This document shows positions 6,184 through 44,090 of a stretch of DNA of 64,000 nt, piece by piece. The DNA is taken from contig CAIQWD010000114.1 of NCBI GenBank assembly GCA_903875445.1, positions 1 through 64,000 of the forward strand. Reading direction: 5' to 3'. Below the pieces are notes generated by a model. That model ran no database searches, had not been told where the DNA came from, and was given only the letters and a program-made list of their open reading frames with translations. Source of the stretch: an uncultured delta proteobacterium. Lineage in GTDB: Bacteria; Desulfobacterota; Desulfobulbia; Desulfobulbales; Desulfocapsaceae. Every line of letters begins with the position of its first letter. Within the stretch, counting starts at the first letter, position 1. Both the position numbers and the translations under genes were made by a program.

Positions 6184-7836
6184 ATGAAATCCAACCATTT
6201 GCGAAGGCTATTTTCCTCTCTGTTCCTCATTTCTCTCCTGTTGCAGAGCCCTGTGTCGTCTGCTTCAGAAAATGTGAAAATTGGTATATTGGCACAACGA
6301 GGGATAGAGATAACGCAAAAGAAATGGAAACACCTGGCTGATTATTTGAATAATGAAATCCCCGAATACCGTTTTTCAATAGAGCCGCTCCGTTTCGATG
6401 AAGTTTCAAATGCGGTCGCCACCAAAGCAGTGGATTTTCTTTTCGTTAATTCCGGGATGTATATTGAGCTGGAATACCACTTTGGACTTCGACCCATTGC
6501 AACTGTGTGTGCAAAACTTGGCAATAAAGGGACTTCGCTGTTTGCCGGATTGATCATTACCCGTGCCGATCGCAGTGATATGCGCACTTTTCAGGACCTG
6601 CGAGGCAAAACCTTTATGGCGGTAGACAGGGATTCTCTCGGCGGATGGCTTATGGCCAAGCGTGAGCTTGAACTCAGTGGCATTAATACAGAGAGTGATT
6701 TCAAATCCTTCAGTTTTGCCGGAACCCACGATGGTGTCGTCAATGCCGTTCTCAACGGCGATGTCGATGCCGGGACAATTCGTTCGGATACCCTTGAGCA
6801 GATGGCTAAAGATCATCTGCTCGATATAAGCAAGCTGCGTATCATCCATGGAGAGAGGATCCATTTTCACTTTGACATTGGTGAGGAGGATTTTCCCTTT
6901 CCCCATAGTACCGATATTTATCCTGAATGGCCCATGGCAAAACTTGCCAACACCTCGGATATGCTTGCCAGAAAGGTAGCAATAGCCCTGCTGAAAATGT
7001 CTGAGGATACTGAGGCCGCAAAATTAATTGGAATTGTAGGATGGGACATCGCTCGCAATTACCAATCTGTCCATGAGTTGTATCGGGAACTTCGTATCGG
7101 CCCATATCGTCAAATTGATAATTTGCGAATTAGTGACGTTTGGCAGCGCTATTGGCCGACCATTGTCTCCGTTGCTCTTTTTTTGGGGATCCTGTGTGTT
7201 TTGCTGTTTTTCCTGGTTCATCTGCGATTGAGGTTAATGAAGGCAAACCAGGCCATAACCCGTATTGCCATGTATGATCCTCTGACCCATCTGCCGAATC
7301 GGCGATTATTTAAAATTCTCGCCGAGAATGCTTTCGCCCAGGCTCGCAGAGAAGGATGGAAAGCCTATTTGTTACTCATTGATTTAGATGGTTTTAAAAT
7401 CATCAACGATACCTATGGCCACGAATCGGGAGATGAAGTGCTGCAGCAGGTAAGTCGACGACTGCGGGTTGTTTTTCCTTGTCAGGAAACCATTGAAAGT
7501 CCCCCCTCCTCCACAAAGCCAAAAAGGTCTGAGGGATTATTCAGAGCAGAGGATCTCATTGCCCGTCATGGTGGGGATGAATTTCTCAGTATGCTCATTC
7601 ATGTGAAAGAACTTGCCGACGTCAAATCCATTGCCCAACGGGTCGTAGATACGGTTCAGCAACCTATCGAACTGGGAGATAAACAGGTGGCTGTCGGAGC
7701 CAGTATCGGTATCGCTGCTTTTCCGGAGGATGGGGAGAATCTCGATGAGTTGATAAAAAACGCTGATAGGGCTATGTACGAAGTGAAACGTTCAGGAAAG
7801 GGAACATATAGGTTATATCGTCAACCTCTCGGTTGA
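6184..7836 (+). CDS. PhnD-type periplasmic sensor diguanylate cyclase
   Basis: A 550-residue membrane sensor. An N-terminal signal peptide (about 1-27) leads into a periplasmic phosphonate-binding-like domain (about 30-300). One transmembrane helix lies near 323-345, and a GGDEF domain occupies about 370-545. The active-site motif is intact, HGGDEF with GGDEF at 463-467, and the inhibitory I-site RxxD is present at 454-457, five residues before it. The enzyme should make c-di-GMP in response to a periplasmic ligand and be subject to product inhibition. A Pro/Ser-rich insert of about 25 residues precedes the I-site. The ligand is unknown. The gene is monocistronic between dsdA and the TPR gene. 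Confidence 0.88.
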   Translation: MKSNHLRRLFSSLFLISLLLQSPVSSASENVKIGILAQRGIEITQKKWKHLADYLNNEIPEYRFSIEPLRFDEVSNAVATKAVDFLFVNSGMYIELEYHFGLRPIATVCAKLGNKGTSLFAGLIITRADRSDMRTFQDLRGKTFMAVDRDSLGGWLMAKRELELSGINTESDFKSFSFAGTHDGVVNAVLNGDVDAGTIRSDTLEQMAKDHLLDISKLRIIHGERIHFHFDIGEEDFPFPHSTDIYPEWPMAKLANTSDMLARKVAIALLKMSEDTEAAKLIGIVGWDIARNYQSVHELYRELRIGPYRQIDNLRISDVWQRYWPTIVSVALFLGILCVLLFFLVHLRLRLMKANQAITRIAMYDPLTHLPNRRLFKILAENAFAQARREGWKAYLLLIDLDGFKIINDTYGHESGDEVLQQVSRRLRVVFPCQETIESPPSSTKPKRSEGLFRAEDLIARHGGDEFLSMLIHVKELADVKSIAQRVVDTVQQPIELGDKQVAVGASIGIAAFPEDGENLDELIKNADRAMYEVKRSGKGTYRLYRQPLG

Positions 7837-13726: not shown

Positions 13727-14140
13727 ATGGGCAAAACCAAAATCTTTCGCGTCGAAAACGGGAGAATGCTCTTCAAGTGCCATATGTGTCAGGGCAAACG
13801 GATGGTTACCATTGCCCCGGGAGTTCGAACGCGATCCCTGCGCTGCAGTAAATGCGGAGAATCCACCCGCTGTATTTTCAACCGCCGCCAGACACCAAGA
13901 GAATCGCAATGCGGCACTGTCTTATTACAGACCAGTGACGGCAGAGAATTGATAGTAGATCTCACCGATATCTCACCGAAGGGGGTGGGGTTCGATCTTT
14001 CCATCCGCGATATCAACAAACTTACCGTCGGTCGGGATGTCCAACTGAAATGCACCTGGAATCCCCAGCTGCTCAGCCATGGACGGTATATAGTGCGGTC
14101 GATGAAAGGTCAGCGAGTCGGTGTCGAACGGCACACTTGA
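13727..14140 (+). CDS. Zinc-ribbon PilZ domain protein
   Basis: 137 residues. An N-terminal four-cysteine ribbon (C18, C21, C40, C43) is followed by a PilZ domain with the c-di-GMP-binding signatures RRQTPR (53-58) and DISPKG (81-86). The protein is cytosolic and likely an effector for c-di-GMP, with the ribbon as a protein or nucleic-acid contact. Two diguanylate cyclases are encoded within 7 kb on either side. It stands alone and is divergent from the sensor-MFS gene. Confidence 0.8.
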   Translation: MGKTKIFRVENGRMLFKCHMCQGKRMVTIAPGVRTRSLRCSKCGESTRCIFNRRQTPRESQCGTVLLQTSDGRELIVDLTDISPKGVGFDLSIRDINKLTVGRDVQLKCTWNPQLLSHGRYIVRSMKGQRVGVERHT

Positions 14141-20333: not shown

Positions 20334-21254
20334 TTAAGTGCCGATAACACTCGCAACAATACGATTGCGGCCATTTTCCTTGGCAAGATAGAGGTTCTTG
20401 TCGGCAGCGGCGACAAAGCTTTGCGGCGTATGACTGTTGTCTACATACATGGTCACAAGCCCCATACTGACTGTGACATAGGCTGCGGCCTGCGAGTAAT
20501 GGTGGGGGATGTTCAGCTCGACAATTTTCCCAAGAGCCCGCTCGGCAACCCCCTTTGCCGCCAACGCATCGGTTTCCGGCAACATCATGACAAATTCCTC
20601 GCCACCGTAACGGGCGATGAGATCGGCGGGGCGCTTAAGAACACTGTCCAGGGCCTTGGCGATTTTCTGCAAAGTGCGATCTCCCATGGCATGGCCGTAA
20701 TGATCGTTGTAGAGCTTAAAATAATCGACATCGACCATGGCCAAGGAAAAAGGTGTCCCGCTTCTGGCCGACCGAACCCATTCCCTCTGAAGATACTCAT
20801 CGAAGCGGCGGCGATTGGATATTTCGGTCAGGCCGTCGAGATAGGCCAATTGATCGAGAAGCCTGTATTGATGGACAATGCGCAGGTGGTTGTGGACACG
20901 AATTTTGACAATGGGCGGGGAAAACGGTTTGGTAATATAATCCACCGCCCCGAGCTTCAGCCCGTGTTCTTCATCGAGAACCGAGTCCAGGGAGGTAACA
21001 AAAATAACCGGGATGTGATTGGTTTTGTCGTTATTTTTAAGGCGCTTGATGACCTCATATCCGCCCATTTGCGGCATGACAACATCCAGGAGGATAAGAT
21101 CCGGCGGTGAATCCCCAAAGGCGTGCTGCAGGGCCTGTTCGCCATCTCTGGCCAGGATCGGCGAATAGTCTTCCTTCAAAAGATCCGCCAGAACCTTGAG
21201 ATTCATCTTTTCATCGTCAACAATGAGTATACGCGGCTTATCTTTCTGTTCCAC
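20334..21254 (-). CDS. Response regulator with GGDEF output (diguanylate cyclase)
   Basis: 306 residues. An N-terminal receiver has D57 as phosphorylation site (LILLDVVMPQMGG). The C-terminal GGDEF domain has an intact active site, GGEEF at 217-221, and an I-site RxxD at 208-211. It should make c-di-GMP when phosphorylated. The start lies 2 bp after the stop of the hybrid kinase, the last step of the hydrogenase operon, so the kinase is the obvious phosphodonor. Confidence 0.92.
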   Translation of the reverse strand: MEQKDKPRILIVDDEKMNLKVLADLLKEDYSPILARDGEQALQHAFGDSPPDLILLDVVMPQMGGYEVIKRLKNNDKTNHIPVIFVTSLDSVLDEEHGLKLGAVDYITKPFSPPIVKIRVHNHLRIVHQYRLLDQLAYLDGLTEISNRRRFDEYLQREWVRSARSGTPFSLAMVDVDYFKLYNDHYGHAMGDRTLQKIAKALDSVLKRPADLIARYGGEEFVMMLPETDALAAKGVAERALGKIVELNIPHHYSQAAAYVTVSMGLVTMYVDNSHTPQSFVAAADKNLYLAKENGRNRIVASVIGT

Positions 21255-21256
21255 CT

Positions 21257-24094
21257 TCAGTCCCCACTTTTCTGCCGAAGCGTATCCAGCAAGACTTTAG
21301 TCATTTCCGCCGCGCTTTCATACTCAATATCTTCAATCAGCTCGGCAAGCGCCCGTAACTGCTTGTCGAAACCACTGCCGACGAGCAACTTTTCAACTGC
21401 CGCAAACTGTTCCTCGGCAGCCAGCTCGCCCCTCTGTAAGTGAGCGATGAGGGTAGAAAGGGGTTCTTCCACCTCCTCTATCCTGACATTCTTTACGGGA
21501 GTGTCAGGTTTTTCCGACACCTGCTCCTCTTTCCGGGCCGGGAGCATCGACAGGGAAGAGAGAATGTCGTCGAGGGCATCGATAAAAGCTGTAAGATGCT
21601 GCACCGCCTCCTCCCGTTGATCATTTCTCAGCGCATTTTCCAACTGTTCCGCTGCCCGCATCAAGACAAAGGAGCCGATATAGCCGGATACCCCCTTAAT
21701 CGTGTGGGCCTTTGTCTCAATGTCCGGCCACTTGCCGGCAACCGACAATTCCCGCAGGAGGGTTGGCAGGGAACTGAAATTCTTTTTGAAATCATAGAGC
21801 ATTTTCACAAAAAGATCAGTTTTGTTATTCAAGATCTTCAGTGCCTCAGCCTGGTCGATCCCCGGCAGATGCGGCAGAAAAGAAAAATCGGTCACCCCGG
21901 CAGCGGTTGCCGGTTGGGGCTTTGGAATTTTGACCACCGGGGTTTTCCCCCGCAGCCATTTTCTTAAGGTATGGTGGAGTGCCGCCGAATCGATGGGCTT
22001 GGTTATATGGTCGTTCATCCCTGCCGCCAGGCTCTTTTCTCTATCGCCGGTCATGGCATGGGCGGTCATGGCAATAATCGGCAGGTCTTTCTGCTTACTG
22101 TTTTGCCGGATTCTTCTGGTTGCCTCCAAGCCATCCATCACCGGCATCTGGATATCCATCAGCACCAGATCATAGGCACTGCGGTCCAAGGCCTCAAGAC
22201 ATTCCCAACCATTGGCGGCAATGGTTACCTCCATGCCGATATCCCGGAGAAATTCGGTGGCCACCTCCTGATTGATAAGATTATCATCGACCAACAGAAT
22301 ATTCGCCCCGGGTATCTCCGCAAAGTCGTCTGCCTTAATTTCTTCCCTGATGGCTAAAGGCCCGGAAAAAGTTTCGACACCGAGAATATCCACCAAGGCG
22401 TCGTACATAACCGAGGCATAAACCGGTTTCAGTAAAAAACCATCGAGACCCACTTTTTCCGCCTCGACATATGCCTCCTCACGCCCATTGGCGGTGACCA
22501 TCAACATCGCCGGAACTTTTGCCAGGAGTGCATTGGCTTTAATTCTCCTGGCCGTCTCTATGCCGTCTATTCCCGGCATTATCCAGTCAAGGAGTACCAG
22601 ATCATAGGGATTGCCCTGCTCCATCGCCTGTTCGAGACAGGTGATGGCCGACATGCCGTCAACGGCGGTATCGACCTTGATCTTGAGGGAAGACAACATA
22701 GCCGAAAGCACTTCGCGGGCTGCCCCATTATCATCGACGACGAGAGCGCGAATTCCCCGCAAGGCGAGCGCTCGACGTGATTTCCGGGCATCGCTTATGC
22801 CCGCAAGTTGCATTTTGGTGGTAAAAATGAATTCCGTTCCTACCCCCGGCTCGCTCTCAATCCATATCTCGCCACCCATCAGTTCCGTCAGTTGTTTGCA
22901 GATGGCCAGGCCTAGTCCAGTACCACCATATTTGCGGGTAATGGAATCATCCGCCTGGCTGAATGCCGAAAAAAGGCGGGCGACCTGCTCCGGCTGCAAA
23001 CCTATACCGGTATCGCGAACGGAAAATCGCAGGGTGACTTCGTTTTCCCGCTGATCTTCCATGCCCACGGCAATAACAATCTCGCCCTTTTCGGTAAATT
23101 TCACCGCATTACCCGCCAAATTCATCAGTACCTGGCCAAGACGCAGGGGGTCGCCGATGAGATTCATCGACACCCCGGATTCTATCCGGAAGATAAACTC
23201 CAAACCTTTCTTCTCGGCCTGCATGCCGACGACACTAGCAATATTACCAAGAATCTCCTCCAGATTGAAGGGTACCGCCTCAAGGAGCAGTTTTCCGGCA
23301 TCAATCTTGGAAAAATCAAGGATATCATTGATCAGGCGCAGCAGGGTGTTGGCGGAACTCAGAGCTTTCTCGACATAGTTGTGCTGCCGGGAATCAAGTG
23401 CTGTCTTTTTTAACAATGAGGCCATGCCGATGATGCCATTCATCGGGGTGCGAATCTCGTGGCTCATCCTCGCCAGAAAATCGCCGCGAGAGGCATTGGC
23501 GGCCTCCGCCTGCTCCTTGGATGCCCTCAATTCCCGCTCCATCTGCTTCTGCAGGGTCATATCCATCGCCGTGAAAAGATAGCCGACAACCCTACCGATA
23601 GGACTGAACAGGCTGGTGACCGACAAACTGACAGGCAGGTGGGAGCCGTCTTTGCACACATAAAACCATTCCTGGGCACGGCTATGTTTCTGTTTGACGA
23701 ATTGTTCGAAGACCTTCATGTCGCGAAGGCTGGAACCGGCGACGCCACTGACCTTCCTGCCATAATGTTCCAGCTCTTCCGGCAGGTGAAGGGAGAGAAT
23801 ATTGCGATTGTTGATCATCTCCGACGGGCTGTAACCAAGCAGCGTCGAAGCGCCTTGGCTGAAGAGCTGAATGGTGCCGTCAAGATAGGTGGCAATGATC
23901 GACAGCTGGGTAGCGCCATCGAGAACCGCCTGCCGTTCGGCATCGGCGGATTGAAAGCGATGCAGCATCTGTTCGGTTTCTTCAAACTGCTTCACCACGA
24001 ATTCGGAGGTGATTTCCGCCGCCTCACGGGCCACCTTGATCTCCCGGCGCAGCATGTCGATTTCCCGCTGCATCTCCTCTCTTGTTTTTTCCAT
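21257..24094 (-). CDS. Hybrid histidine kinase (PAS-HisKA-HATPase-REC-REC-HPt)
   Basis: 945 residues, no transmembrane segment. In order: a coiled coil (about 1-60), PAS (about 60-190, GYSPSEM and CKDGSHLPV), HisKA with SHEIRTPMNG, HATPase with NLAGNAVKF and GGTGLGLAI, two receivers (LVVDDN...LLDWIMPG and LLVDDN...LMDIQMPV), and an HPt domain with AHTIKGVSG. It is a full phosphorelay in one cytosolic protein. The start ATG overlaps the stop of the hydrogenase maturation protease by one base. The genes on both sides imply that it reads the state of the hydrogenase and passes phosphate to the receiver-GGDEF protein. Confidence 0.92.
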   Translation of the reverse strand: MEKTREEMQREIDMLRREIKVAREAAEITSEFVVKQFEETEQMLHRFQSADAERQAVLDGATQLSIIATYLDGTIQLFSQGASTLLGYSPSEMINNRNILSLHLPEELEHYGRKVSGVAGSSLRDMKVFEQFVKQKHSRAQEWFYVCKDGSHLPVSLSVTSLFSPIGRVVGYLFTAMDMTLQKQMERELRASKEQAEAANASRGDFLARMSHEIRTPMNGIIGMASLLKKTALDSRQHNYVEKALSSANTLLRLINDILDFSKIDAGKLLLEAVPFNLEEILGNIASVVGMQAEKKGLEFIFRIESGVSMNLIGDPLRLGQVLMNLAGNAVKFTEKGEIVIAVGMEDQRENEVTLRFSVRDTGIGLQPEQVARLFSAFSQADDSITRKYGGTGLGLAICKQLTELMGGEIWIESEPGVGTEFIFTTKMQLAGISDARKSRRALALRGIRALVVDDNGAAREVLSAMLSSLKIKVDTAVDGMSAITCLEQAMEQGNPYDLVLLDWIMPGIDGIETARRIKANALLAKVPAMLMVTANGREEAYVEAEKVGLDGFLLKPVYASVMYDALVDILGVETFSGPLAIREEIKADDFAEIPGANILLVDDNLINQEVATEFLRDIGMEVTIAANGWECLEALDRSAYDLVLMDIQMPVMDGLEATRRIRQNSKQKDLPIIAMTAHAMTGDREKSLAAGMNDHITKPIDSAALHHTLRKWLRGKTPVVKIPKPQPATAAGVTDFSFLPHLPGIDQAEALKILNNKTDLFVKMLYDFKKNFSSLPTLLRELSVAGKWPDIETKAHTIKGVSGYIGSFVLMRAAEQLENALRNDQREEAVQHLTAFIDALDDILSSLSMLPARKEEQVSEKPDTPVKNVRIEEVEEPLSTLIAHLQRGELAAEEQFAAVEKLLVGSGFDKQLRALAELIEDIEYESAAEMTKVLLDTLRQKSGD

Positions 24095-24540
24095 CAACCA
24101 AGGCCCCGCAACCCATGCACTGCAATGGAAACACTCATTTCGGCAGCTTTCTCGATAGTCTCGTCAACACAGCTTCCCTCAAGCCCCACGAGAACCATTT
24201 CCTCCGGCAGTTCCCCTTCACACACCTTGGGCAGGACGGCAAGCAGATAGGGCAAACCGGCGTCATGGCCAAAACAAAAATGGCCGGGAGCTTGCAGGAT
24301 TTCCCGGTGGGTCAGAAGAACTATTTTCCCCGCCTGGGTGAAACCCCTGATCGCATCGACAAAAACCACTCGCCCCCCGTGCTCCAAGAGGGGAAGAAGA
24401 TTCAGACCCGCCAGCCCGCCTTCCACAAGCTCTATCCCGACCGGCAAGGGGTGCAGCGCTTGAATGCGGTCGAAGACCCGGAGCCCGGCTGCATCCTCCT
24501 CGATAAAGCGGTTGCCGATACAGATAATGCTTCCTCTCAC
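24094..24540 (-). CDS. [NiFe] hydrogenase maturation endopeptidase
   Basis: 148 residues of the HyaD/HybD/HoxM family (M52). It has the glycine-rich start GNRFIEEDAAG, the acidic residue in VVFVDAIRG and the histidine in CFGHDAGL, which together form the nickel-recognition site in characterised members. It cleaves the C-terminal tail of the large subunit after nickel insertion. It overlaps the large-subunit stop by four bases. Its presence argues that this hydrogenase is processed, unlike the classical tail-less H2 sensors. Confidence 0.88.
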   Translation of the reverse strand: MRGSIICIGNRFIEEDAAGLRVFDRIQALHPLPVGIELVEGGLAGLNLLPLLEHGGRVVFVDAIRGFTQAGKIVLLTHREILQAPGHFCFGHDAGLPYLLAVLPKVCEGELPEEMVLVGLEGSCVDETIEKAAEMSVSIAVHGLRGLG

Positions 24541-26087
24541 CGAAAAGAACCCACTGTCACCCTACCCCGCTCCTGCCCTTTAGAGAGACAGTGCACCGCG
24601 CACACCAGGCACGGGTCAAAAGACCGGACAACATGCCCGGCCTCCACCGGGTTCTTGATATCCTTGACCGGGGTGCCGATCAGGGCCTCTTCCCAGGCCC
24701 CCCGCGCCCCCTGTTCATCCCGCGGGGAACCGTTCCAGGCGGTTGGGGTGATTATCTGATAGTGGCTGATCTTTTCATCCTGGATTTTCACCCAATGCCC
24801 CAATGCGCCGCGGGCCGCCTGAATCATTCCCGCCCCTTGACCATCGGGGATGGTTCGCACGGAATGATAAAAGGGCTCGCCCCGCTTCTCCACCAACTCG
24901 TCCAGCCATAGGGCCATCGGGCGGAGGAGCCCTGCGGGCCGGACCAGGCGAGCCAGTTGCCGGGCCATGACGCTTGGGCCGTCTTTTTCGATCATGTCGC
25001 AAAAAAGCGGATTACCGGAGATCACCATTTCCGCAAGAGGTCCTGTTTCAATCACCTCACCACCATAGCGGGGCGCCTTGACCCAGGAATACAACCGACC
25101 GCTTTGCCCGGAAGCGTAGGGTTTTGTCTTGCCGGCAAAGGGGTGCAGCGCAACGGTATCCTGCTCATACCAGGAGTGAGACACATCTTCGCTAATTTTG
25201 TTTGCTTCAAACGAGAAAACAGCGGCACAGGCGGCATAGCCGGCTGCCGTCATCCTGCCGCCTGTCCCCTTGACCTCGGTTTCTAACGGCAGGGGCAAAT
25301 TGCCGTAGGAGAGAAAGCGGTTCGGACCTTTGCCGAGCGCCTGCAAACCGATCTTACGAGAAAAGCGAAGAAAAAAGCCCACTTCGCTGTCCCGATGGGC
25401 CGGACTTTCTTCGAGCCAGGTCTCAAGATCGGCGACACTGCCTATCGCCAGCCATCTTTCGATGGAACACCCGAGGATGCTGCGCTCGTACCAGGACTGA
25501 AACCGCTCGACGATAATTCGACATTGCAGAAGTTTTGCGATCTCGGGAATCGAGGTCACTCCGCCGGGAACCATGAAGGAGGTATGGGGCCACTGGCCGC
25601 CGATGATGGCTATCACCTGCACCAGCCGCTTGCTTTCGCGGATCACCTCCAGTGCCGCCCGGCCGGCGAGTGGCTGATACCTGCCATAGGCATCGGCCCC
25701 CAGAGGATGATCGCCATAGGCGTCGCGGTTGGCAAAATCGACCATAAACATCAAAATCGCCTGGCGGACATCGCTCTGAACGGTTTCGACCATCAAGGCC
25801 AAATTGCGCAGCCTCCGAGCATTGTCGGGAGGGGTGACCGCGGCGATTGCATCCAGCGCCTCAACGGCTGCGGTGAGATGGGTAATACTGCAAATCCCGC
25901 AGACTCTAGGGGTCATGACCAAACCATCGAGGGCGCCGCGGCCCTGCATCATCCCTTCAAAGCCGCGAAACAGGGTGCCGGCACTCCAGGCCTCGGTGAT
26001 AATCCCGTCTTCGACCTCGACGTTGATCTCCAGATCGCCCTCGGCCCTGTTCAGGGGAATGTTGATTCCCTTCGTTATCTTAACCAT
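24537..26087 (-). CDS. [NiFe] hydrogenase large subunit
   Basis: 516 residues. The N-terminal nickel-binding motif is RVCGICSITH (C63, C66, H70), and the C-terminal motif is DPCLVCAVH (C493, C496, H499), followed by a 17-residue tail expected to be removed by the maturation protease. All four nickel-ligating cysteines are present. There is no membrane segment. It probably pairs with the small subunit encoded 22 bp upstream. Sequence style and gene context fit the cytosolic group 2 hydrogenases (uptake or sensory) better than the periplasmic group 1 enzymes; I infer group 2c. Confidence 0.93.
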   Translation of the reverse strand: MVKITKGINIPLNRAEGDLEINVEVEDGIITEAWSAGTLFRGFEGMMQGRGALDGLVMTPRVCGICSITHLTAAVEALDAIAAVTPPDNARRLRNLALMVETVQSDVRQAILMFMVDFANRDAYGDHPLGADAYGRYQPLAGRAALEVIRESKRLVQVIAIIGGQWPHTSFMVPGGVTSIPEIAKLLQCRIIVERFQSWYERSILGCSIERWLAIGSVADLETWLEESPAHRDSEVGFFLRFSRKIGLQALGKGPNRFLSYGNLPLPLETEVKGTGGRMTAAGYAACAAVFSFEANKISEDVSHSWYEQDTVALHPFAGKTKPYASGQSGRLYSWVKAPRYGGEVIETGPLAEMVISGNPLFCDMIEKDGPSVMARQLARLVRPAGLLRPMALWLDELVEKRGEPFYHSVRTIPDGQGAGMIQAARGALGHWVKIQDEKISHYQIITPTAWNGSPRDEQGARGAWEEALIGTPVKDIKNPVEAGHVVRSFDPCLVCAVHCLSKGQERGRVTVGSFR

Positions 26088-26109
26088 GCAGCCTTCATCC
26101 TTTTGTGAG

Positions 26110-27045
26110 TTACACCTTCGATTTCCTGTGCTTCAGATGCTCGGGTGCAGCGGCGGCCGCCATACCTTTGTACACCATATAATGGGCGCGATTGACACCC
26201 ATGGGCAAGGACAGCGGAATGCCCTCGATATTCGGAGTTTGGAAAAATGGGGTGGTCCTGGGGAAGTCCGGATCGGTACAACCAAAACACGGTACCCCGG
26301 CACGGGTTTTGGAAGAATGTTGATTCCACAGCGATTTATTGCAGGGCCCCGGCACCAGGGGTCCGGCGCAGCCCATATGAAAGAAGAGGCAGCCCATTTC
26401 CCCAAAGTCGGATTCCTCCACCCGATATTCATGGTATTCATTGCGCGTGCACCCCTGGTGCACGGTGGTGGCATACCATTCGCGCGGTCGCTGATATTTA
26501 TCCAGTTCAAGGACCACGCCCTTGGCCGCGGACATAAGCGCCCCGGAGATCACATCATGATGACACGGGCATCCCGCCAGATTAATGACCGGCTGCCCGG
26601 ATTTGCTGACAAAATCCTTACCGAGGAAACCGCCGCGTTGTTTTTTTACAAACTGCAGACCGGTGGCTTCAATCGCATCATCGGCACCAAATCCGCCGAA
26701 GGATGCACAGGTGCCGATCGCTATAACTACCTGGGCCTGGGAGGCGAGATTATACACCCGTTCTTTTTTCGGATGGCCATCAACGGTGTGAAACATGCCG
26801 GTGCCCGCCGGCCCGCAGATCACCGAACCCTCGACCAGAAGGATGTCGAGTGCCTGCCGCCCGGCAAAGATGTCTTCCAAAAGACACTCATGGGCATCGG
26901 GAGAAAAATGAGAAAGCGAAGGATGCCAGAGAAGCTGAATGCCGAGAGTCCGAAAGAGCCCTATGACGTCCGGACACTCACTGCTTAAAAAGGAGAAGGT
27001 ATCCCCACCGCAGCCGCCACCCTGTAGCCAATATACTGTTTTCAC
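26110..27045 (-). CDS. [NiFe] hydrogenase small subunit
   Basis: 311 residues starting with GTG behind GGAG. There is no Tat signal and no C-terminal anchor, so the enzyme is cytosolic. Fe-S ligands for the distal and medial clusters are present (HQGC, GCLFFHMGC, GPCNKS, PCFGC). For the proximal cluster, C12, the cysteine of GTCASFGG and that of AGCPCH are seen, but the usual second cysteine of the CxxC pair is Asp15 (CGGD). Three-Cys-one-Asp ligation is known from the actinobacterial-type hydrogenase of Cupriavidus necator. It is the first gene of the five-gene operon. Confidence 0.93.
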   Translation of the reverse strand: MKTVYWLQGGGCGGDTFSFLSSECPDVIGLFRTLGIQLLWHPSLSHFSPDAHECLLEDIFAGRQALDILLVEGSVICGPAGTGMFHTVDGHPKKERVYNLASQAQVVIAIGTCASFGGFGADDAIEATGLQFVKKQRGGFLGKDFVSKSGQPVINLAGCPCHHDVISGALMSAAKGVVLELDKYQRPREWYATTVHQGCTRNEYHEYRVEESDFGEMGCLFFHMGCAGPLVPGPCNKSLWNQHSSKTRAGVPCFGCTDPDFPRTTPFFQTPNIEGIPLSLPMGVNRAHYMVYKGMAAAAAPEHLKHRKSKV

Positions 27046-27256: not shown

Positions 27257-28378
27257 ATGACAACAACAGCCAGCGATTTTCAGATCTTTGCCAAACCTGC
27301 CAGCTATCGTTGCAACCTCGAGTGCAGCTATTGCTATTATCTCGGCAAGGCCGACCTCTTGCCGGCAGACCCACTGCCGCTGATGGCGGACGCTCTTCTT
27401 GAAACCTATATTCACGGGCATATTGAGACCCATCCAGGAGAAATTGTCCGATTTTCCTGGCACGGCGGCGAGCCGACGCTCCTTGGTCTTGACTACTTCC
27501 GGCGCATTGTCGAACTGCAGCAAAAATATTGCCCGCCCGACAAACGCATTGCCAACGGCATCCAGACCAACGGCACCCTGCTGAACGATGCCTGGGGCCG
27601 CTTTCTGGCAAAACATCGCTTTTCCGTAGGCTTGAGCCTTGACGGCCCGGAGGAAATCCATGATCTGTACCGCCGCACCAGACGGGGCCTGGGCACCCAC
27701 GACGCGGTGATGCGCGGCTATAACTGCCTTGTCAAACATGGCGTACCTGTCGATATTCTCTGCGTAATCAATGACTACAACGTCATGTTCCCCCTGCAGG
27801 TGTACCGTTTTTTTACCTCCATCGGCGCGAAATACCTGAGTTTTTTGCCGCTGGTCGAACGCATCCCGAGCGGAGTCAGCGAGCGCACGGTCCACCCGGA
27901 GGCCTTTGGCGCCTTTTTATGCACGGTTTTCGACCTGTGGCTGGCAGAGGATATCGGCAGCATCAAGATACAGATCTTCGAGGAAGCGGCGCGCACCGCC
28001 TTTGCCCAGGACCATTCCCTGTGCCTTTTTCGGCCAACCTGCGGCGACATCCCGGTGCTTGAATACAATGGCGATGTCTATGCCTGCGATCATTTCGTCC
28101 TGCCCGCCTGGCGAGTGGGGAACCTTCAGGAGGCCACACTTGTCGAGATCCTCACCTCTAAGCGTCTGACCGCTTTTGGCGCGGCCAAACGCTTGACCCT
28201 TCCGCAATGTTGCAGGTCCTGCGAGGTACTGGCGATGTGCAACGGCGAGTGTCCGAAAAACCGCTTTGTCGAAAAGGCCGGGGAGACGGAAAAATGCAAC
28301 TACCTGTGCGCCGGCTACAAACTCTTCTTCACCCATTGCACTCCCTTTGTGCAGGCGATTTCCCGGCAATGGTCGTAA
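27257..28378 (+). CDS. Radical SAM sulfatase-maturase-type enzyme (anSME)
   Basis: 373 residues. The SAM cluster motif CNLECSYC has C19, C23 and C26. Residues after about 255 form a SPASM domain with CGDIPVLEYNGDVYACDHF and a final CCRSCEVLAMCNGECPKNRF for auxiliary [4Fe-4S] clusters. Characterised family members oxidise a Cys or Ser of a sulfatase to formylglycine without oxygen. No sulfatase lies in the window, so the partner is elsewhere or the substrate is a different peptide. It is divergent from the hydrogenase operon. Confidence 0.88.
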   Translation: MTTTASDFQIFAKPASYRCNLECSYCYYLGKADLLPADPLPLMADALLETYIHGHIETHPGEIVRFSWHGGEPTLLGLDYFRRIVELQQKYCPPDKRIANGIQTNGTLLNDAWGRFLAKHRFSVGLSLDGPEEIHDLYRRTRRGLGTHDAVMRGYNCLVKHGVPVDILCVINDYNVMFPLQVYRFFTSIGAKYLSFLPLVERIPSGVSERTVHPEAFGAFLCTVFDLWLAEDIGSIKIQIFEEAARTAFAQDHSLCLFRPTCGDIPVLEYNGDVYACDHFVLPAWRVGNLQEATLVEILTSKRLTAFGAAKRLTLPQCCRSCEVLAMCNGECPKNRFVEKAGETEKCNYLCAGYKLFFTHCTPFVQAISRQWS

Positions 28379-37299: not shown

Positions 37300-40200
37300 T
37301 CAGACCTTCGTAACCTTTACCTTGCTGTCATAAAAAACCGCTGAACCGCCAACCAGATCGGAGAGGGTTACGTTTTTAGTAACCGGGTCTATCCGCATGG
37401 CGGCATTGAGGTGGAGAGGTACCGTCCTCCTCTTGTCTCCCTTAATGAGTTTTCCATTAATCGTCATATCGGCGGAGCCGCTTGCCCAATGCCCAAAACC
37501 GAGGGGAAAAGCAACAACACCGGGACGGATACCTTCAGTTACATAGGCCTTGCCCTTCATGGGAATTTTCCGTCCACCCTTGACATCCCAGACCCCCTCG
37601 GGGTTACTCGCCGAAGTGACGTGAACCGTATCATCATGACGAATTCCCAGTTTGGCGGCATCTACTGTATTCATGAGAACGTACCCTTCATGCACTATGG
37701 AGAGGAGCCAGTAGTTACTGATAGTTCGAGCCTTGGTCATGGTTATGGTCTTAAAGGTTATGAGATGCAGGTCATAGCCATTATCCTGAATAACCTTACC
37801 AAGGTAATCGGTACCGGCCGGGAGATAGGTCGGAAGTCCTATCATGTTTTTTCCGGTCATGGTGTTTATGCATTTTGCGGTTTTTTCCTGGAACAAGTTG
37901 ATCAATTCTCCATAGGTATTGGTAACCTGTCCGTCTTTGTAAGCCTTGGCAAAGTCTTGATAGCGACCGCCGCGATTCATGGCATAGACAACTTTTTTCC
38001 AGAGCGATTCATTGCCGCCGACGGCAGCCTTCCATTTTTTCTCGTCAAAGACCGAGGGAGGAAGATGCCTTCGCGCCTTGAGAAAAATGATCATTTCCTC
38101 TTCATTTGCTTCAGGCACCGAATCGGAGCCATCCTCTTTTTCGCCAAAGGCTATATCGGCAACTTGTTTAAGGTAGAAATCTTCCGGCCTGCGATAAGGG
38201 ATACCCTTGCCGAAGCCATCAGGGCCAAAGCCCGGTAAATCAAGCTTTTCGGCAATAGCCAAAAAGAGTGCTTCGAAGCATATCGGGATCTCTTCCCCAT
38301 AAACGGAGACCGTAGGCCAACCGGGAAGACTGATGGCAGGATTTCTGATATTCTCAACCTTCCATGGGACCGACGGGTGTGAACCGTGGAATTCCCAACG
38401 TTCAAGGTACGATACATCCGGGAAAATATAATCGGCATAGTTGGATGTTTCTCCGACCATGATATCACAGGCAATATACAGAGGGAGCTTCTTGATGTCG
38501 GTAAGAATTTCAATTCCCGTATGTCCGGCGGGGAGGCTGTAGACGCTGCCGTTCATGTAGGTCATCAATATTTTGATAGGATATGGATAGGCATCGCCTA
38601 TCGACGGAAGGTCCTCCTGGTAAATATCCGAGGCAATAGGGAACCATGGCCGTTTGGTCGGATAGCTGCCGTCAAAGAGGGTGCTTTTTTCATAGGTGGT
38701 CTTCGTCCGCAGCATGTCAACACCAAAAGCGGTGAAATGGTGACTGCCGAACATTTTAGTTACCGGAAAAGGTTGCCCCTTTTTACTCCCCTTGCGATCA
38801 TAGGTTTTTGCCTTGATGCTTCCTCCGGCATAATCATAATTACCAATCAGCAGATTAAGCGTGTAATAGGCGTTATTATTATAAAAGCCGTTGGTATGCT
38901 GCGACGGCCCACGATGGATGTCGACAACCGCTTTGCGTCCATGGGAGGTAAACTCATCGGCAAGGATGAGGATATCCTTTTCACTCACCCCGGCGATATC
39001 CGCCCATTCGGCGATAGTATGCTTTTCCGCTTCTTCTTTTAAGAGCTGCAGGCTTGATTTTACTTTCTTTCCTCCTATTTCGGTACTTACCAACAGGTCG
39101 CCAATGACCGCCGGAGCCTTTTTATCGACCGGATCAAAAGCAACCGGCACACCATTCACCATTGCCACCGGGACATCACAGGTGAAAGTGCGACCATCCG
39201 CTGTTTTATAGTGGGTAGTTGGTTTGCCCTCTTCATCTAGGGCTTCGACCGGTGAAGTGAGGCCTATTTCGCTTGCCCGCAGAAATTTGGTGGGTTCATT
39301 TTTGTCATTAATTTTCACGAGCCAGGCGGTGTTGGCATAATTCGGCTCTCCTGCGGCGGTGGCCGCCGCTTGATTGGTGAGGGCCAGATAGCCGGCATTA
39401 TAGCGTTCTTTTTCGATAATCCATCGGATCATTCCCATAGCCAGGGCTGCGTCGGTTCCTGGTTTTATCGGGATCCATTTCCATGCTTTGGCGGCAAGCT
39501 TACTGCACCTGGGATCGATAACCGCAAATTTGCGACCGGTGATAATGGCCTCGGTGGCTTTGGGGGCGCGATGCGGCGGACCATAATTGGCATCAAATAA
39601 GTTGGTCCCGGCATAGATGACAAATTCACTATTGCCGGTGTCCCCCTGCCAGTAAAATTTGTCGCCGCTATCGAATTCCCCATTCTTCGAATTCCATTTG
39701 GAACTCATCGATTTGCCGGTGAAATAGAGTGACCCCTGGCAAACGGTGGTATGGCCGTTCATATTGATGGAGCCGAATGCTTCCTGGACAAAGCGATCGA
39801 CAACATCTTCACGTCCGCCTTTCATCCTCCCCCAGACAAACATGAATTGATTGTTTTTCGGTCCGAAATCCGGATGATCGGGATCAATCAAGGTGTGAAG
39901 ATGATCTTTAAACTTTTCTTTAAATCCCTCGACCAGGGCTTTTTTCTTCTCCTTATCCTTTTCATCCCAGATTTTTTTTACAGCTTCCCCCATCTCTTTT
40001 GCCATATCAGCGCTGGTTAAAGCCCGGACCGATTTCAACCCATCGACATGGCCTTCGCCAAAGAGATCGCCGCCGCCGATAATTTCATCAATGGCCTTGT
40101 CGAAAGGGAGGGTGATCCATTGCCCATCCCCTCGTTTGCTTCCGGGTTTTCTTTTCAAGACACTCATGATGCGATAGGGATCGTAGGCGGCTTGCATCCC

Positions 40201-40572
40201 CGCCTGTCCTTTCGGGCAGATGGCGCCTTCTATTTTCCCCATCTCTTTTGCCGGAGTTTTATAGGCCGGATGGGGCCACAGAGTCCACGGGCTATAGGGG
40301 TTGCCATCAATTTTCGCGACAATGCCGTCGAGGATTTTCACCTTAATGCCGCAACCGGTATTGCATTGCAGGCAGACGGTGTAGATCTGGTTTTCAGGAT
40401 TATCTTCGAAGAAATCGACATCTTCTCCAGCTGCGAAAGCTTTTTGGATGGCAGCACAGGCCTCCGGCAGATCACGAAGGAAAGCAGCCGAGGCGGCTAC
40501 CGCGCAGGAGGATGACTGAAGAAATGCCCGTCTGGTTATCATAGCTGTTTTTTTCGATGTAATGTCATTCAT
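37300..40572 (-). CDS. Molybdopterin oxidoreductase, TtrA-like catalytic subunit
   Basis: 1090 residues. The N-terminus carries a twin-arginine signal (TRRAFLQ, R14-R15). A [4Fe-4S] ligand set follows: C67, C70, C74 and C119. C278 in HTTVCQGSLYF is the likely molybdenum ligand, and the DMSO-reductase core covers most of the rest, with GTNLFDANYGPPHR and IKPGTDAALAMGM. The size and large inserts fit tetrathionate, selenate and related reductases more than nitrate reductase. With the partner genes it forms an export-type respiratory reductase on the outer face of the cytoplasmic membrane. The substrate is not decidable by reading: tetrathionate, polysulfide, arsenate and selenate are candidates. 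Confidence 0.85.
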   Translation of the reverse strand: MNDITSKKTAMITRRAFLQSSSCAVAASAAFLRDLPEACAAIQKAFAAGEDVDFFEDNPENQIYTVCLQCNTGCGIKVKILDGIVAKIDGNPYSPWTLWPHPAYKTPAKEMGKIEGAICPKGQAGMQAAYDPYRIMSVLKRKPGSKRGDGQWITLPFDKAIDEIIGGGDLFGEGHVDGLKSVRALTSADMAKEMGEAVKKIWDEKDKEKKKALVEGFKEKFKDHLHTLIDPDHPDFGPKNNQFMFVWGRMKGGREDVVDRFVQEAFGSINMNGHTTVCQGSLYFTGKSMSSKWNSKNGEFDSGDKFYWQGDTGNSEFVIYAGTNLFDANYGPPHRAPKATEAIITGRKFAVIDPRCSKLAAKAWKWIPIKPGTDAALAMGMIRWIIEKERYNAGYLALTNQAAATAAGEPNYANTAWLVKINDKNEPTKFLRASEIGLTSPVEALDEEGKPTTHYKTADGRTFTCDVPVAMVNGVPVAFDPVDKKAPAVIGDLLVSTEIGGKKVKSSLQLLKEEAEKHTIAEWADIAGVSEKDILILADEFTSHGRKAVVDIHRGPSQHTNGFYNNNAYYTLNLLIGNYDYAGGSIKAKTYDRKGSKKGQPFPVTKMFGSHHFTAFGVDMLRTKTTYEKSTLFDGSYPTKRPWFPIASDIYQEDLPSIGDAYPYPIKILMTYMNGSVYSLPAGHTGIEILTDIKKLPLYIACDIMVGETSNYADYIFPDVSYLERWEFHGSHPSVPWKVENIRNPAISLPGWPTVSVYGEEIPICFEALFLAIAEKLDLPGFGPDGFGKGIPYRRPEDFYLKQVADIAFGEKEDGSDSVPEANEEEMIIFLKARRHLPPSVFDEKKWKAAVGGNESLWKKVVYAMNRGGRYQDFAKAYKDGQVTNTYGELINLFQEKTAKCINTMTGKNMIGLPTYLPAGTDYLGKVIQDNGYDLHLITFKTITMTKARTISNYWLLSIVHEGYVLMNTVDAAKLGIRHDDTVHVTSASNPEGVWDVKGGRKIPMKGKAYVTEGIRPGVVAFPLGFGHWASGSADMTINGKLIKGDKRRTVPLHLNAAMRIDPVTKNVTLSDLVGGSAVFYDSKVKVTKV

Positions 40573-40577
40573 CTCGA

Positions 40578-41702
40578 TTACTCCTTTGGGGAATGTGCAA
40601 GTGGGAGAAAACGATCAAATCCGGCTCGTAAACCGAGGATGACCAGCCCGAGCAAACCGCAAGCCACCGCCCACTCCGTCATACTGGGAGAATAGGTTAA
40701 CGTGAGTCCTTTGCCGGAAAAAGAAGACGATAAGCCTTCCAGAGGGTCGACCTGTTGGCCTGCAACCAGAACCAGATATCGTGCCACCGCATTGCCGAGA
40801 AGAATCAAGAGCCCGGCAAGGCCGAGAAGAAACGAACCGGCACTCCCTCTAACGATGAACAAGATGAACAGCGGCACAATGGAGCCGAGAACGATCTGCA
40901 GACCCCAGAACGAAGTACTGAAATGTCCGAAGACAATCTGCTGTGCCGGTTGCGCTATTTCGGGCATGTTGCCACTGAGAGATTGCGTCAAAAAGACGTA
41001 GGAGGCGAAGAGATTGATCAAGACCAGAAGAGAAGTGATTTTCCCAAGAAGACCGGGCTGGTATTCTCCCGGCAGATCCCGAAGAAATATTCCCCTAAGA
41101 ACCAGGAGCATGGCTCCGCCTGCCATCAACGACTGCAGAAGATATTGCAGCGGCATGAGAGAACTGTGCCAGAAGAGCCGAGCAGCATTATTGCCCATCA
41201 GTTTGCCGGGTAAACCGCTGACGACAACCGAGACAATCAATCCTATCCACATAATTGCCTGCAATGTCGGATTCTTGGGTTCTGTCGCTGAAACGATGAG
41301 TGCGGCAACGGTTACCAAGCCGAAGACTGTGTAGCCCCAGACGTCCATGGCAACCCCAGAGGACATATTGGCCTGGAAAATGGTCTTCCAGAAACGATCC
41401 ATATGTCCAAGATCGAGGGCAATGGCCGCAAGACCGGCAACGAGAGTCACCAGTGCCGCAAGAAGAGCCGGTCGGCCCGTTCCGGAAAAAGAGGGTACGT
41501 GAAAGATAAGGTCAAGGCTTGCCCAGATAAAGCAGCCTGTAGCGATGCCCCCGAAAAGAAAATAGAGGGAAACCCATAAACCCCAGACCACAAAAGAACC
41601 ATAGTTGGTATGTGCATCTCCTGCGGAGAGAAAATCGGCCAGTCCCCAACAACCTATGGCAAATCCCAGTATTCCAACAAGATAGAGTATTTTCTTATCC
41701 AT
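40578..41702 (-). CDS. NrfD/PsrC-type membrane anchor subunit
   Basis: 374 residues, nine or ten transmembrane helices, of the polysulfide-reductase NrfD family. Seen are WGLWVSLYFLFGGIATGCFIWASL near the start, LDLGHMDRFWKT, and GNNAARLFWHSSLMPLQY. It anchors the reductase to the membrane and takes electrons from menaquinol. It lies 5 bp upstream of the catalytic gene and 9 bp downstream of the ferredoxin gene, so the three form one operon. Confidence 0.88.
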   Translation of the reverse strand: MDKKILYLVGILGFAIGCWGLADFLSAGDAHTNYGSFVVWGLWVSLYFLFGGIATGCFIWASLDLIFHVPSFSGTGRPALLAALVTLVAGLAAIALDLGHMDRFWKTIFQANMSSGVAMDVWGYTVFGLVTVAALIVSATEPKNPTLQAIMWIGLIVSVVVSGLPGKLMGNNAARLFWHSSLMPLQYLLQSLMAGGAMLLVLRGIFLRDLPGEYQPGLLGKITSLLVLINLFASYVFLTQSLSGNMPEIAQPAQQIVFGHFSTSFWGLQIVLGSIVPLFILFIVRGSAGSFLLGLAGLLILLGNAVARYLVLVAGQQVDPLEGLSSSFSGKGLTLTYSPSMTEWAVACGLLGLVILGLRAGFDRFLPLAHSPKE

Positions 41703-41711
41703 TTTCAGCTC

Positions 41712-42536
41712 CTACAGTATGTAGTAGACACGCGGTTTGGTGCCGAATTCCGCTTTCAGTTGCCCCACATTCGGTTTGGCCAGGAGTTCACTGACCAGCG
41801 ATGTCGAATCGTCGGCATCACCGAAATACGTGGCCCGGCCGATGCACGTTGTGGTACAGGCAGGCAGGACACCGTTATGAATACGATCAAGGCAAAAGTG
41901 GCACTTTCGAACATTCCCTATCGGTGAGGAATGCTTGTTGGTTCGCACTCGTTTTCGGCCATACTCGATATTGATATTTCGTTCATAATCATCAGCCCTG
42001 CTTTCGCCGAGGACAACTGTCTCCTCATTTGTCGTTCCTTCTGTATAGGTCCCACCAAAATCATAGGTCCTGGCCCCGTAGGGACAGGCGGCTATACAGG
42101 CACGGCAGCCTATACACTGGTCATAATCCATGACCACAATTCCTTCCGCATTGGTGTAAGTGGCATGAACCGGGCAGGCTTGGGTACAGGGCGGATTTTC
42201 ACACTGCATGCATGGACGCGGTAAAAAGTTCATGGTCACATTGGGATACTTCCCTTTTTCCTGTATGGTTACAGGTCGGTAAACGATACCAGGCGGGAGC
42301 TTGTTGACGGCAATGCAGGCAACCGTGCAGGCATGGCAACCGATGCATCGACGCAGGTCGATGACCATCACCCACTTTCTTTGGGCTTCATTTTTTTTGA
42401 GCGCTCTGCCAAGCTCTTTGTTCATTCGCAGCAGAACATCTTCTTTAGCGGGCGGTTCCGGGGTTTTTATTGTCGCACCGCCGCTGACCGGTGGGGAGGG
42501 TGAACCCTTTTCCATAGGTTGGACTTCATTTGCCAT
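41712..42536 (-). CDS. Four-cluster ferredoxin-type electron-transfer subunit (TtrB-like)
   Basis: 274 residues from the ATG at 42536, picked because AAGGAG lies before it; the longer frame to 42644 has an implausible leader. Four [4Fe-4S] motifs are visible: [35 protein letters not shown] and [30 protein letters not shown] near the end is typical of the DmsB/PsrB/TtrB family. It shuttles electrons between the NrfD anchor and the molybdopterin subunit. It is the first gene of the operon. No N-terminal signal is seen, so it may be exported together with the catalytic subunit. Confidence 0.88.
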
Positions 42537-42605
42537 GGTCAATCTCCTTGTGATGATGACACCTGAAAAATATGCTATCTCAATGAAGTACTCATTTGAG
42601 GCTGT

Positions 42606-42621
42606 TGCATAAAAAATGCCA
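42606..42621 (-). promoter_or_regulatory. Sigma-54 (-24/-12) promoter of the reductase operon
   Basis: The minus-strand sequence TGGCATTTTTTATGCA has GG at -24 and GC at -12 with exactly 10 bp between them, close to TGGCACN5TTGCW. It lies 70 bp upstream of the ferredoxin ATG. The adjacent gene encodes a sigma-54 activator with GAFTGA, which makes the assignment coherent. Upstream, two CTGTCTA repeats at 42671-42677 and 42694-42700, 23 bp apart, may be activator sites. Confidence 0.72.
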
Positions 42622-42704
42622 TCTATATCTATTTGAAAATACAATGATAAAACTGGAGACTGGGGAATAACTGTCTAAGGAATGAGCAGGATGCTGTCTA
42701 TTAT

Positions 42705-44090
42705 TTAAGCAGATCCCAGTTTTTTGCGGAGGGTCATGCGGTTGATGCCAAGGAGATGGGCGGCCTGTACCTGATTGCCTTCACAGAGATCCAGGGCTTT
42801 TTTTATCAAGATATTCTCAACTTCAGTAAGAAGATGTTTGTATGGTTTTGACTCATCGGCATGAATGAGGAGATCGATCTGTTTGTTGACAGCTTGCTGA
42901 AAACCTTCTTCACCGGCAACGGGAACTTCGGAGAAGGAGAAGTCTTCCTTGCCGAGAATCGTCGAGCGAGCGAGAACGATAGCTCGACGAATGGTGTTTT
43001 CCAGTTCGCGAATATTGCCGAGCCAGGCATGTTTCATCAGTTTCTTGATGGCATTGTCGCTGACTCCCGTCACCGGCGGGGCAACCTGTTTGCCGTAGCG
43101 AAAAAGAAAATATTGCACCAGCTCGGGAAGGTCGTTGAGACGCTGGCGCAACGGGGGAATGGATAAGGTCAGAACATTAATCCGGTGGAGCAGGTCGAGA
43201 CGAAATTGTCGTTCGGAGGCCAGATGTTCAAGGTTCCTGTTGGTTGCGGCGAGTAAGCGGACATCGGTTTTCAGTTGCTGATTGCTTCCCAGTCGCTCAA
43301 AAGTTCCATCCTGCAAAACCCTGAGGACTTTTGCCTGGGCCGCAAGAGGTAACTCGCCAATCTCATCGAGAAATATTGTTCCCCCGTGGCATTGTTCAAA
43401 TCGGCCGATCCGTTGTTTACCGGCACCCGTAAAGGCACCGGTTTCGTAACCAAAGAGTTCGCTTTCCACTAATTCGAGCGGCAAGGATGCGCAGTTGACG
43501 ACAAGAAAAGGACGAGTATTTCGTTTACTATGTTGAATAATAGCACGGGCTGCCAGTTCTTTCCCCACTCCGGTCTCGCCGGTGATGAGAACAGGCAGAT
43601 CTGACTGGGCAATCTGGCCGATTTTTTTGCACATTGAGAGGATCGCCGGACTGGTACCGATAATACACTCTTTATCGTTTGCACCCTCCTGCCAAAGATG
43701 GCCGCAATCACAGTTGAGTTTGGCCTGCAATTTGGAGGCATAGAGAGCTTTGGTGAGGATATCACGGAGTTCGGCATTATTGAATGGTTTGGCAACATAG
43801 TCGAAAGCGCCGTCTTTCATGGCCTGCATGGCGGATGCTGAATCGGCAAAGGCAGTAACCATTATCACCGGTAATTGCGGGTTGCTGATTTTTATATGGC
43901 GTAGGGCGGTCAAACCATCCATCGTCGGCATGCGAATATCCATGAGCACGACTGAAGGTTCATCCCGGGCAATTTCCTCCAGTGCCTGCATGCCATTTTC
44001 TGCGGTACGAATGGTGTATTCTTCACCAAAAGTTCTTTCGAACGCGTAACGAACCGCTTTTTCGTCGTCAACCACAAGGAGAGTTGTCAT
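42705..44090 (-). CDS. Sigma-54-dependent response regulator (NtrC family)
   Basis: 461 residues: receiver with D51 (VVLMDIRMP), AAA+ core with Walker A GETGVGKE, the sigma-54 contact motif GAFTGA and Walker B FLDEIGE, then a Fis-type HTH (NQVQAAHLLGINRMTLRKKL) at the very C-terminus. It is the expected activator of the reductase operon. Its gene begins inside the kinase gene (23-bp overlap), which encodes its partner. Confidence 0.93.
   Translation of the reverse strand: MTTLLVVDDEKAVRYAFERTFGEEYTIRTAENGMQALEEIARDEPSVVLMDIRMPTMDGLTALRHIKISNPQLPVIMVTAFADSASAMQAMKDGAFDYVAKPFNNAELRDILTKALYASKLQAKLNCDCGHLWQEGANDKECIIGTSPAILSMCKKIGQIAQSDLPVLITGETGVGKELAARAIIQHSKRNTRPFLVVNCASLPLELVESELFGYETGAFTGAGKQRIGRFEQCHGGTIFLDEIGELPLAAQAKVLRVLQDGTFERLGSNQQLKTDVRLLAATNRNLEHLASERQFRLDLLHRINVLTLSIPPLRQRLNDLPELVQYFLFRYGKQVAPPVTGVSDNAIKKLMKHAWLGNIRELENTIRRAIVLARSTILGKEDFSFSEVPVAGEEGFQQAVNKQIDLLIHADESKPYKHLLTEVENILIKKALDLCEGNQVQAAHLLGINRMTLRKKLGSA

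Follow-up and report, generated by a model that had tools for sequence, protein, structure and literature searches.

The described systems closest to the locus analysed here are the group 2 [NiFe] hydrogenases of classes 2a, 2b and 2c and, for its last gene, the PleD/WspR-type cyclases. In group 2b (HoxBC-HoxJ, HupUV-HupT), a hydrogenase dimer is accompanied by a soluble kinase, and the pair is described in PMC10073562 as forming an H2-sensing complex. According to statements in the same article, the regulatory hydrogenase of Cupriavidus necator complexes with the kinase HoxJ, which phosphorylates HoxA in the absence of H2, and continuous H2 turnover is needed for sensing; a statement in a review (PMC6978683) gives the opposite control, HoxBC activating HoxJ. 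Group 2a, which includes Huc, has an uptake role, as given in the HydDB article (PMC5037454). The table of that article enters group 2c, a class apart from 2a and 2b, as 'Diguanylate cyclase-linked (putative)', with its role undetermined, and suggests that it may sense H2 and control processes by producing cyclic di-GMP. Since HydDB already proposes this link, the idea of H2 acting on c-di-GMP through group 2c is not new, and the operon described here is a member of a class already in print. No experimental test of any 2c enzyme was found in the literature searched on group 2c, H2 sensing, proximal Asp ligands and HupT docking, which lay mostly outside subscription journals and, apart from the HydDB table, mentioned the subject in passing.

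The window, that is the whole stretch of 64,000 nucleotides analysed, comes from a draft genome of 4.9 Mb (117 contigs, 95% complete). Its minus strand carries five consecutive genes, in the order small subunit, large subunit, protease, kinase, cyclase:

26110-27045, minus strand: [NiFe] hydrogenase small subunit, 311 aa, without Tat leader (PF01058 and PF14720).
24537-26087, minus strand: [NiFe] hydrogenase large subunit, 516 aa, with nickel-site motifs CGIC and CLVC (PF00374, 282.7 bits; trees).
24094-24540, minus strand: hydrogenase maturation protease, 148 aa (HycI PF01750; TIGR00072 above cut-off).
21257-24097, minus strand: soluble hybrid kinase PAS-HisKA-HATPase-REC-REC-HPt, 946 aa (Pfam; His213, Asp504, Asp648, His798).
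20334-21254, minus strand: REC-GGDEF diguanylate cyclase, 306 aa (PF00072, PF00990; REC Asp57, GGEEF, I-site).

The two subunit genes are separated by a 22 bp gap, the large subunit and protease genes overlap by 4 bp, and a 2 bp gap lies between the kinase and cyclase genes. The protease and kinase genes overlap by 4 bp with TTG as the kinase start, and by less with the next codon, ATG, as the start. These coordinates confirm the tight five-gene order described in an earlier, sequence-only reading of the same DNA, and Pfam and NCBIfam match its domain calls. The closest solved chain to the small subunit was 7uur_D ('Hydrogenase-2, small subunit', E 1.1e-80); an AlphaFold model of this subunit was of too low confidence for further use (mean pLDDT 52, below 50 over the last 120 residues). 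Because hydropathy was low (a maximum mean Kyte-Doolittle value of at most 1.46 per 19-residue stretch across all five proteins) and no twin-arginine pair was present in the first 40 residues of the small subunit, all five proteins look cytosolic. Sigma-70-like sites numbered 14 where 6.1 were expected, and three lay upstream of the operon and on the operon's strand; predicted terminators numbered 12 where 11.0 were expected. Neither count was given weight. A gene for a radical-SAM anaerobic sulfatase maturase (27257-28378) is divergent from the operon, and its relatives flank the operon in 4 of 16 other neighbourhoods.

Relatives were gathered as 18 loci from named bacterial contigs, together with further genomes and plasmid records, including that of Cupriavidus necator HoxBC. 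The 2a and 2b labels of the plasmid rows were taken from annotation and general background, and the rows of the further genomes were labelled by tree position. Duplicates and fragments (L002-L008, L027-L046) were dropped from the stop-to-stop set; two duplicates (L001, L107) and four rows from other hydrogenase groups or with weak matches (L070-L073) were excluded from the trees. A quick maximum-likelihood tree, built on 82 large subunits, placed the window inside a clade of 51 rows (SH-aLRT 99). In a careful tree built on 41 of the 82 rows, this clade comprised 24 rows with a support of 100/99, group 2a was its sister (joint fork 98/94) and group 2b stood on a separate branch (100/100). All 200 bootstrap trees gave the clade a single origin. 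The large subunit fell outside the 2b clade in both trees and outside the 2a clade in the careful one. Its closest solved structures are of the 2a type (7uus_A and 7utd_A, E about 6e-115). As in the HydDB definition of 2c, the operon is encoded with a diguanylate cyclase (gene at 20334-21254), and an Ideonella plasmid relative carries a PAS-GGDEF-EAL protein. Tree position and gene context are the reasons for which we name the window hydrogenase a putative member of HydDB group 2c. Phylogeny of the large subunit was a check set beforehand; the separate clade does not group with uptake or bidirectional enzymes, though its sister is the uptake class 2a.

Two markers in the window distinguish this hydrogenase from one or other of the neighbouring classes:

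27001-27012, minus strand: CGGD of the small subunit, in which Asp15 replaces Cys at the second proximal Fe-S ligand position (alignment; role assigned by position).
24540-24590, minus strand: 17-residue tail of the large subunit after DPCLVCAVH, predicted to be removed on maturation (sequence, group comparison).

The second proximal ligand position was occupied by Asp in 48 of 48 clade small subunits (the window and 47 loci), by Asn in 10 of 10 from 2a and by Cys in 9 of 9 from 2b. At the first distal ligand position the window has His196, whereas 2a has Gln. A table in PMC4070099 lists Asp and Asn at the second proximal position, without group names, and gives the Asn/Gln pattern for Nostoc punctiforme. 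The 2b enzymes further differ from the window by a longer C-terminus of the small subunit. All 48 complete clade loci other than the window's have a large-subunit tail (4-22 residues), as do all ten 2a loci, against none of nine 2b loci. In 36 of these 48 clade loci a protease gene lay nearby; in the other 12 none was found. The sequence-only reading had taken tail and protease as the trait that makes this operon different from classical sensors. That holds with respect to the tail-less 2b enzymes; as a special trait of the window's operon it was rejected, the tail being class-wide and also found in 2a. Judged from sequence, tail and protease set the class apart from the classical sensors, yet are not special to the window.

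We also looked at Ile62 and Phe110 of the regulatory hydrogenase, which we take to be the residues that narrow its gas channel. At these positions the window large subunit keeps Ile (Ile65) and has Met113 in place of Phe; with one of two bulky residues kept, the result was mixed and was rejected as proof of sensor function. Five deep-branching relatives lie on the 2b side (L066, L067, L068, L094, L095). Two of them (L067, L068) are tail-less and the other three tailed, Asp occupies the proximal ligand position in all four that could be read, and their kinase N-termini resemble HoxJ more than the helix of the window's clade described below. They may represent a stage between 2b and the rest.

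A signalling gene came next after the hydrogenase genes in 49 of the 51 clade rows; L023, at a contig end, and L025, with a broken large subunit, had no readable partner and stand outside the partner counts. The 49 partners are 43 kinases, five PAS-GGDEF proteins and one PAS-SpoIIE protein. The kinases vary in the presence of PAS and HPt domains, in the number of receivers (0, 1 or 2) and in their catalytic cores. PAS is absent from L085 and L058 by Pfam and from the other L053-L064 rows by our own profiles. PAS-GGDEF(-EAL) genes follow the protease immediately in L074 (Pfam) and in L096-L099 (own profiles), and for kinase partners outside the window's subclade no cyclase gene was in view. The clade differs from the HydDB picture of 2c in also using plain kinases, PAS-GGDEF(-EAL) and PAS-SpoIIE proteins, and the window itself differs in that its cyclase would be reached via a hybrid kinase relay. 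In six annotated plasmid loci of group 2a, no kinase or cyclase gene adjoins the hydrogenase, which often has NifU and NHL-repeat genes beside it.

Some of these neighbourhoods showed features of their own. A sister group (L053, L055-L064; large subunit about 47-54% identical) has a kinase-receiver partner and no cyclase in view. Two unrelated fructose-1,6-bisphosphatase genes (PF06874 and GlpX, PF03320), which Pfam identified in L058 and BLAST located in the others, lie directly upstream of the hydrogenase in 11 of 12 sister-group loci, the twelfth contig (L054) ending at the small subunit. This linkage may point to gluconeogenesis or carbon fixation being under H2 control. In L065 (5295-11163), the clade hydrogenase is followed by a PAS-SpoIIE protein of the PP2C phosphatase type and preceded by a multihaem cytochrome gene, a possible H2-controlled partner switch. 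Four genomes (G030, G031, G035, G052) contain two clade loci each, one of the window's subclade and one of the fructose-bisphosphatase-linked type, which suggests separate H2 circuits in one cell.

One element was common to all kinase partners read:

23927-24070, minus strand: N-terminal 48-residue segment of the kinase (residues 10-57), a proposed hydrogenase-docking adaptor (profile searches, identity comparison).

This segment of about 48 residues, with the helix consensus xxENxxLRxELxVAREAAEITAxLVVKQFxxTExxLxR, heads all 43 kinases (41 loci, the window and L092). The N-termini of HoxJ and HupT, the two 2b kinases compared, differ from it. In four loci (L052, L088, L090, L091) the helix is 52-65% identical to that of the window and the kinase core 27-34%; other kinases in the set lay at the same level, with core identities to the window of 25-39% and a single 50% match over 62 residues. 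Among the other partners, divergence of the helix goes along with that of the core, the core is often better kept, and most cores are 40-91% identical to that of the window. A profile was made from 19 segments (18 loci and the window) and run against genomes at E <= 0.001. Among 97 relatives it gave 29 matches in 25 genomes, each located 42-619 bp downstream of a large subunit with E <= 6e-157 (29 such subunits). Among 395 genomes of the phylum it gave 12 matches in 11 genomes, of which 11 were beside clade hydrogenases. The twelfth (G437:C24) directly follows what is left of the small- and large-subunit genes of a hydrogenase of this class, and was rejected as a stand-alone helix. In total, 39 distinct places were found in 478 distinct genomes, 38 beside a clade hydrogenase and one beside remnants.

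Of the 4698 frames in the collected loci, 43 matched the profile, namely the 41 partners, L092 and L107, the last a duplicate of L024. None of 23 other kinases matched over their whole frames (L107 and the partner L092 excluded). There was no match in the clade members with SpoIIE (L065) or PAS-GGDEF (L074, L096-L099) partners, nor in the 2b-side kin G066, G075, G084, G271 and G100, whose four readable kinases start differently from the helix. Since the profile was built from our own loci, its presence there is expected and its absence elsewhere is the informative part. The PAS-GGDEF and SpoIIE partners begin with a similar-looking helix; hhalign gave a probability of 13% against the kinase helix, and homology is not claimed. 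AlphaFold modelled the kinase N-terminus as one long helix running into PAS, with a mean pLDDT of 61 and values of 34-69 in the helix block, too low a confidence for further use. Our literature searches on H2 sensing and group 2c, subjects other than the helix itself, returned nothing on a shared adaptor or on output exchange, and the shared kinase helix is what is new here.

The helix might be nothing but an inherited dimerisation coiled coil of the kinase that makes no contact with the hydrogenase. Signalling helices are common in kinases, the low-confidence model predicts just such a helix into PAS, and descent alone could keep it because most partners have related cores. Such a reading does not account well for the four loci where the helix is much better kept than the core, nor for the lack of any profile match in the 23 other kinases, and we regard it as unlikely. 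Instead, we propose from these sequence comparisons that the helix may be a docking adaptor letting one H2-sensing head drive swappable outputs. Extended to the whole class, this proposal would make 2c hydrogenases one H2-sensing head with exchangeable outputs. The helix would be the plug on dissimilar cores (plain kinase, hybrid kinase, kinase-HPt-cyclase relay), with a similar-looking helix on PAS-GGDEF(-EAL) and PAS-SpoIIE proteins, and the proximal Asp would be part of the redox tuning. We give this wider proposal an even chance of being right.

The same observations bear on whether the hydrogenase is a sensor at all. It could be an H2-consuming or H2-producing enzyme that is merely co-operonic with a kinase and a cyclase answering another cue via PAS. 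The sister position of 2a, to which the nearest solved enzyme, Huc, belongs, would agree with this, as would the kept cluster-ligand positions and a tail and protease like those of catalytic enzymes. However, all 49 readable neighbours are signalling proteins, and these are of several types; what the kinases have in common is the helix and not PAS, which is absent from several; and the helix was not found away from a clade hydrogenase or its remnants in the 478 genomes. A metabolic enzyme in chance company with signalling genes therefore appears very improbable, and we retain a sensory role for the hydrogenase.

We then considered how far the five-gene unit as such is conserved. The window's subclade comprises 22 rows (SH-aLRT 97, quick tree), and 19 of them (the window and 18 loci) have the full order small subunit, large subunit, protease, kinase, cyclase; carriers include Desulfofustis glycolicus DSM 9705 and Desulfogranum mediterraneum DSM 13871. 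The sequences of L009 and L020 stop inside the kinase. The PAS kinase of L052, within the subclade, lacks both receivers and HPt, and in the 240 bp left after it no cyclase gene was found; this locus is the one exception among 20 rows readable at this point, the cyclase following the kinase in the other 19. Recurrence of the unit in 18 other loci is more than chance. The residues of the putative relay could be followed through these rows:

23555-23938, minus strand: PAS domain of the kinase, about residues 54-181 (PF00989/PF13426).
22382-22765, minus strand: first receiver of the kinase, Asp504 (Asp in 19 of 21 rows; gapped in L022 and L085).
21965-22300, minus strand: second receiver of the kinase, Asp648 (Asp in 21 of 21 rows).
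21563-21763, minus strand: HPt domain of the kinase, His798 (His in 20 of 21 rows; L009 cut off by contig).
20592-20633, minus strand: I-site RPAD and active site GGEEF of the cyclase (RxxD in 19 of 19 rows, GGEEF in 19 of 19).

The phospho-acceptor His of the kinase (His213 in the window) was kept in 21 of 21 subclade rows, and a residue of the acidic pocket of the second receiver was Asp in 17 and Glu in 4 of the 21 kinases. The receiver Asp of the cyclase was kept in 19 of 19 rows. The window cyclase thus combines the receiver Asp, GG(D/E)EF and RxxD of a receiver-GGDEF enzyme, and the intact GGEEF and I-site reported earlier were both read again in the sequence. Its best NCBIfam match was PleD, under the cut-off of that family. 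It is like the PleD/WspR-type cyclases in its receiver, GGEEF and I-site, and unlike them in being fixed to a hydrogenase operon. Distance matrices were correlated between large subunit and kinase (r 0.94), large subunit and cyclase (r 0.88) and kinase and cyclase (r 0.89; n = 19). None of 2000 permutations was as high, shared ancestry not being removed by permutation; the agreement shows co-inheritance and not function.

A sensory hydrogenase does not by itself make the cyclase the main target. The kinase might mainly control other regulators, for example of hydrogenase genes as HoxJ does with HoxA, and the cyclase would then be a side branch or be fed by several kinases. Hybrid kinases can feed several regulators, and the genome has a dense network of its own, with 26 GGDEF match pieces that fall in 25 places, since two pieces belong to a single gene. 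Such an arrangement would also fit L052 and those kinase partners beyond the subclade, where no cyclase gene is in view. It is countered by the position of the cyclase after the kinase in nearly every readable subclade row and by cyclase distances that track those of the kinase. Seven flank families were common to at least 3 of 17 neighbourhoods, none of them in more than 5, and none of the seven resembles a DNA-binding regulator when sequence starts are judged by eye. Control mainly of other regulators seems to us a rather poor prospect, and we keep the cyclase as the favoured output.

We consider it probable that the group-2c-type hydrogenase is a cytoplasmic H2 sensor acting via the kinase-HPt relay on the c-di-GMP output of the cyclase. 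The dimer, matured by the protease, would turn H2 over, and by analogy with the 2b complexes it may signal H2 to the kinase. The redox or conformational state of the dimer would be passed by direct contact to the N-terminal helix, where we place the contact, rather than at PAS, because the helix is the one element that all kinase partners read have in common. The helix would set autophosphorylation at His213. Domain order and intact residues suggest that the phosphate would then pass to Asp504 and/or Asp648, on to HPt His798 and finally to Asp57 of the cyclase, the phosphorylation of which would control c-di-GMP output, with feedback at the I-site. Thus H2 as the signal, the helix as the contact, the phosphate route and the change in c-di-GMP are what we infer. 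Since the 2b kinase is described in PMC10073562 as active without H2, H2 could by analogy lower c-di-GMP. The likeness to 2b ends at the output, HoxA being a transcription activator and the window's target a cyclase. Several points stand against the sensor model: the first receiver is missing in 2 of 21 kinases, L052 has a plain PAS kinase, the sister 2a consists of uptake enzymes, the helix profile does not match in the six members of the clade whose partner is a PAS-GGDEF or SpoIIE protein, only one of two gas-channel residues is kept, and the helix model is of low confidence.

The sequence-only reading had also named the PilZ proteins at 13727 and 36481 as possible readers of the signal. 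Both PilZ matches are present, that at 13727 with a score of 22.6 against a Pfam cut-off of 22.5 bits, and they are two of 19 PilZ matches in the genome. Neither gene belonged to a shared flank family in the 17 neighbourhoods, where flanks extended to at most about 9 kb and 36481 lay at the limit. Because the genome holds 25 GGDEF places and 19 PilZ matches, finding two PilZ genes within 64 kb does not argue for a dedicated target, and we rejected them as specific targets. Elsewhere in the window, a GGDEF domain fused to a phosphonate-type periplasmic binding domain (6184-7836) is a second possible c-di-GMP enzyme. The region 37300-44090 encodes a molybdopterin oxidoreductase of 1090 aa and an NrfD-like membrane subunit, with a sigma-54 response regulator close by; it resembles a reductase system for sulfur oxyanions or polysulfide that has a regulator of its own. 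An open frame of 748 residues (2468-4714) matched no Pfam family at E <= 0.001.

Between anaerobes, H2 serves as a central currency, and the most likely purpose of the five-gene unit, conserved among relatives of sulfate reducers, is to turn the presence of H2 into a lifestyle signal. With the conserved unit present in culture-collection strains, the HydDB proposal for group 2c can be tested directly. Should the helix indeed be a docking element, it would be a ready-made part for H2 biosensors with a chosen output.
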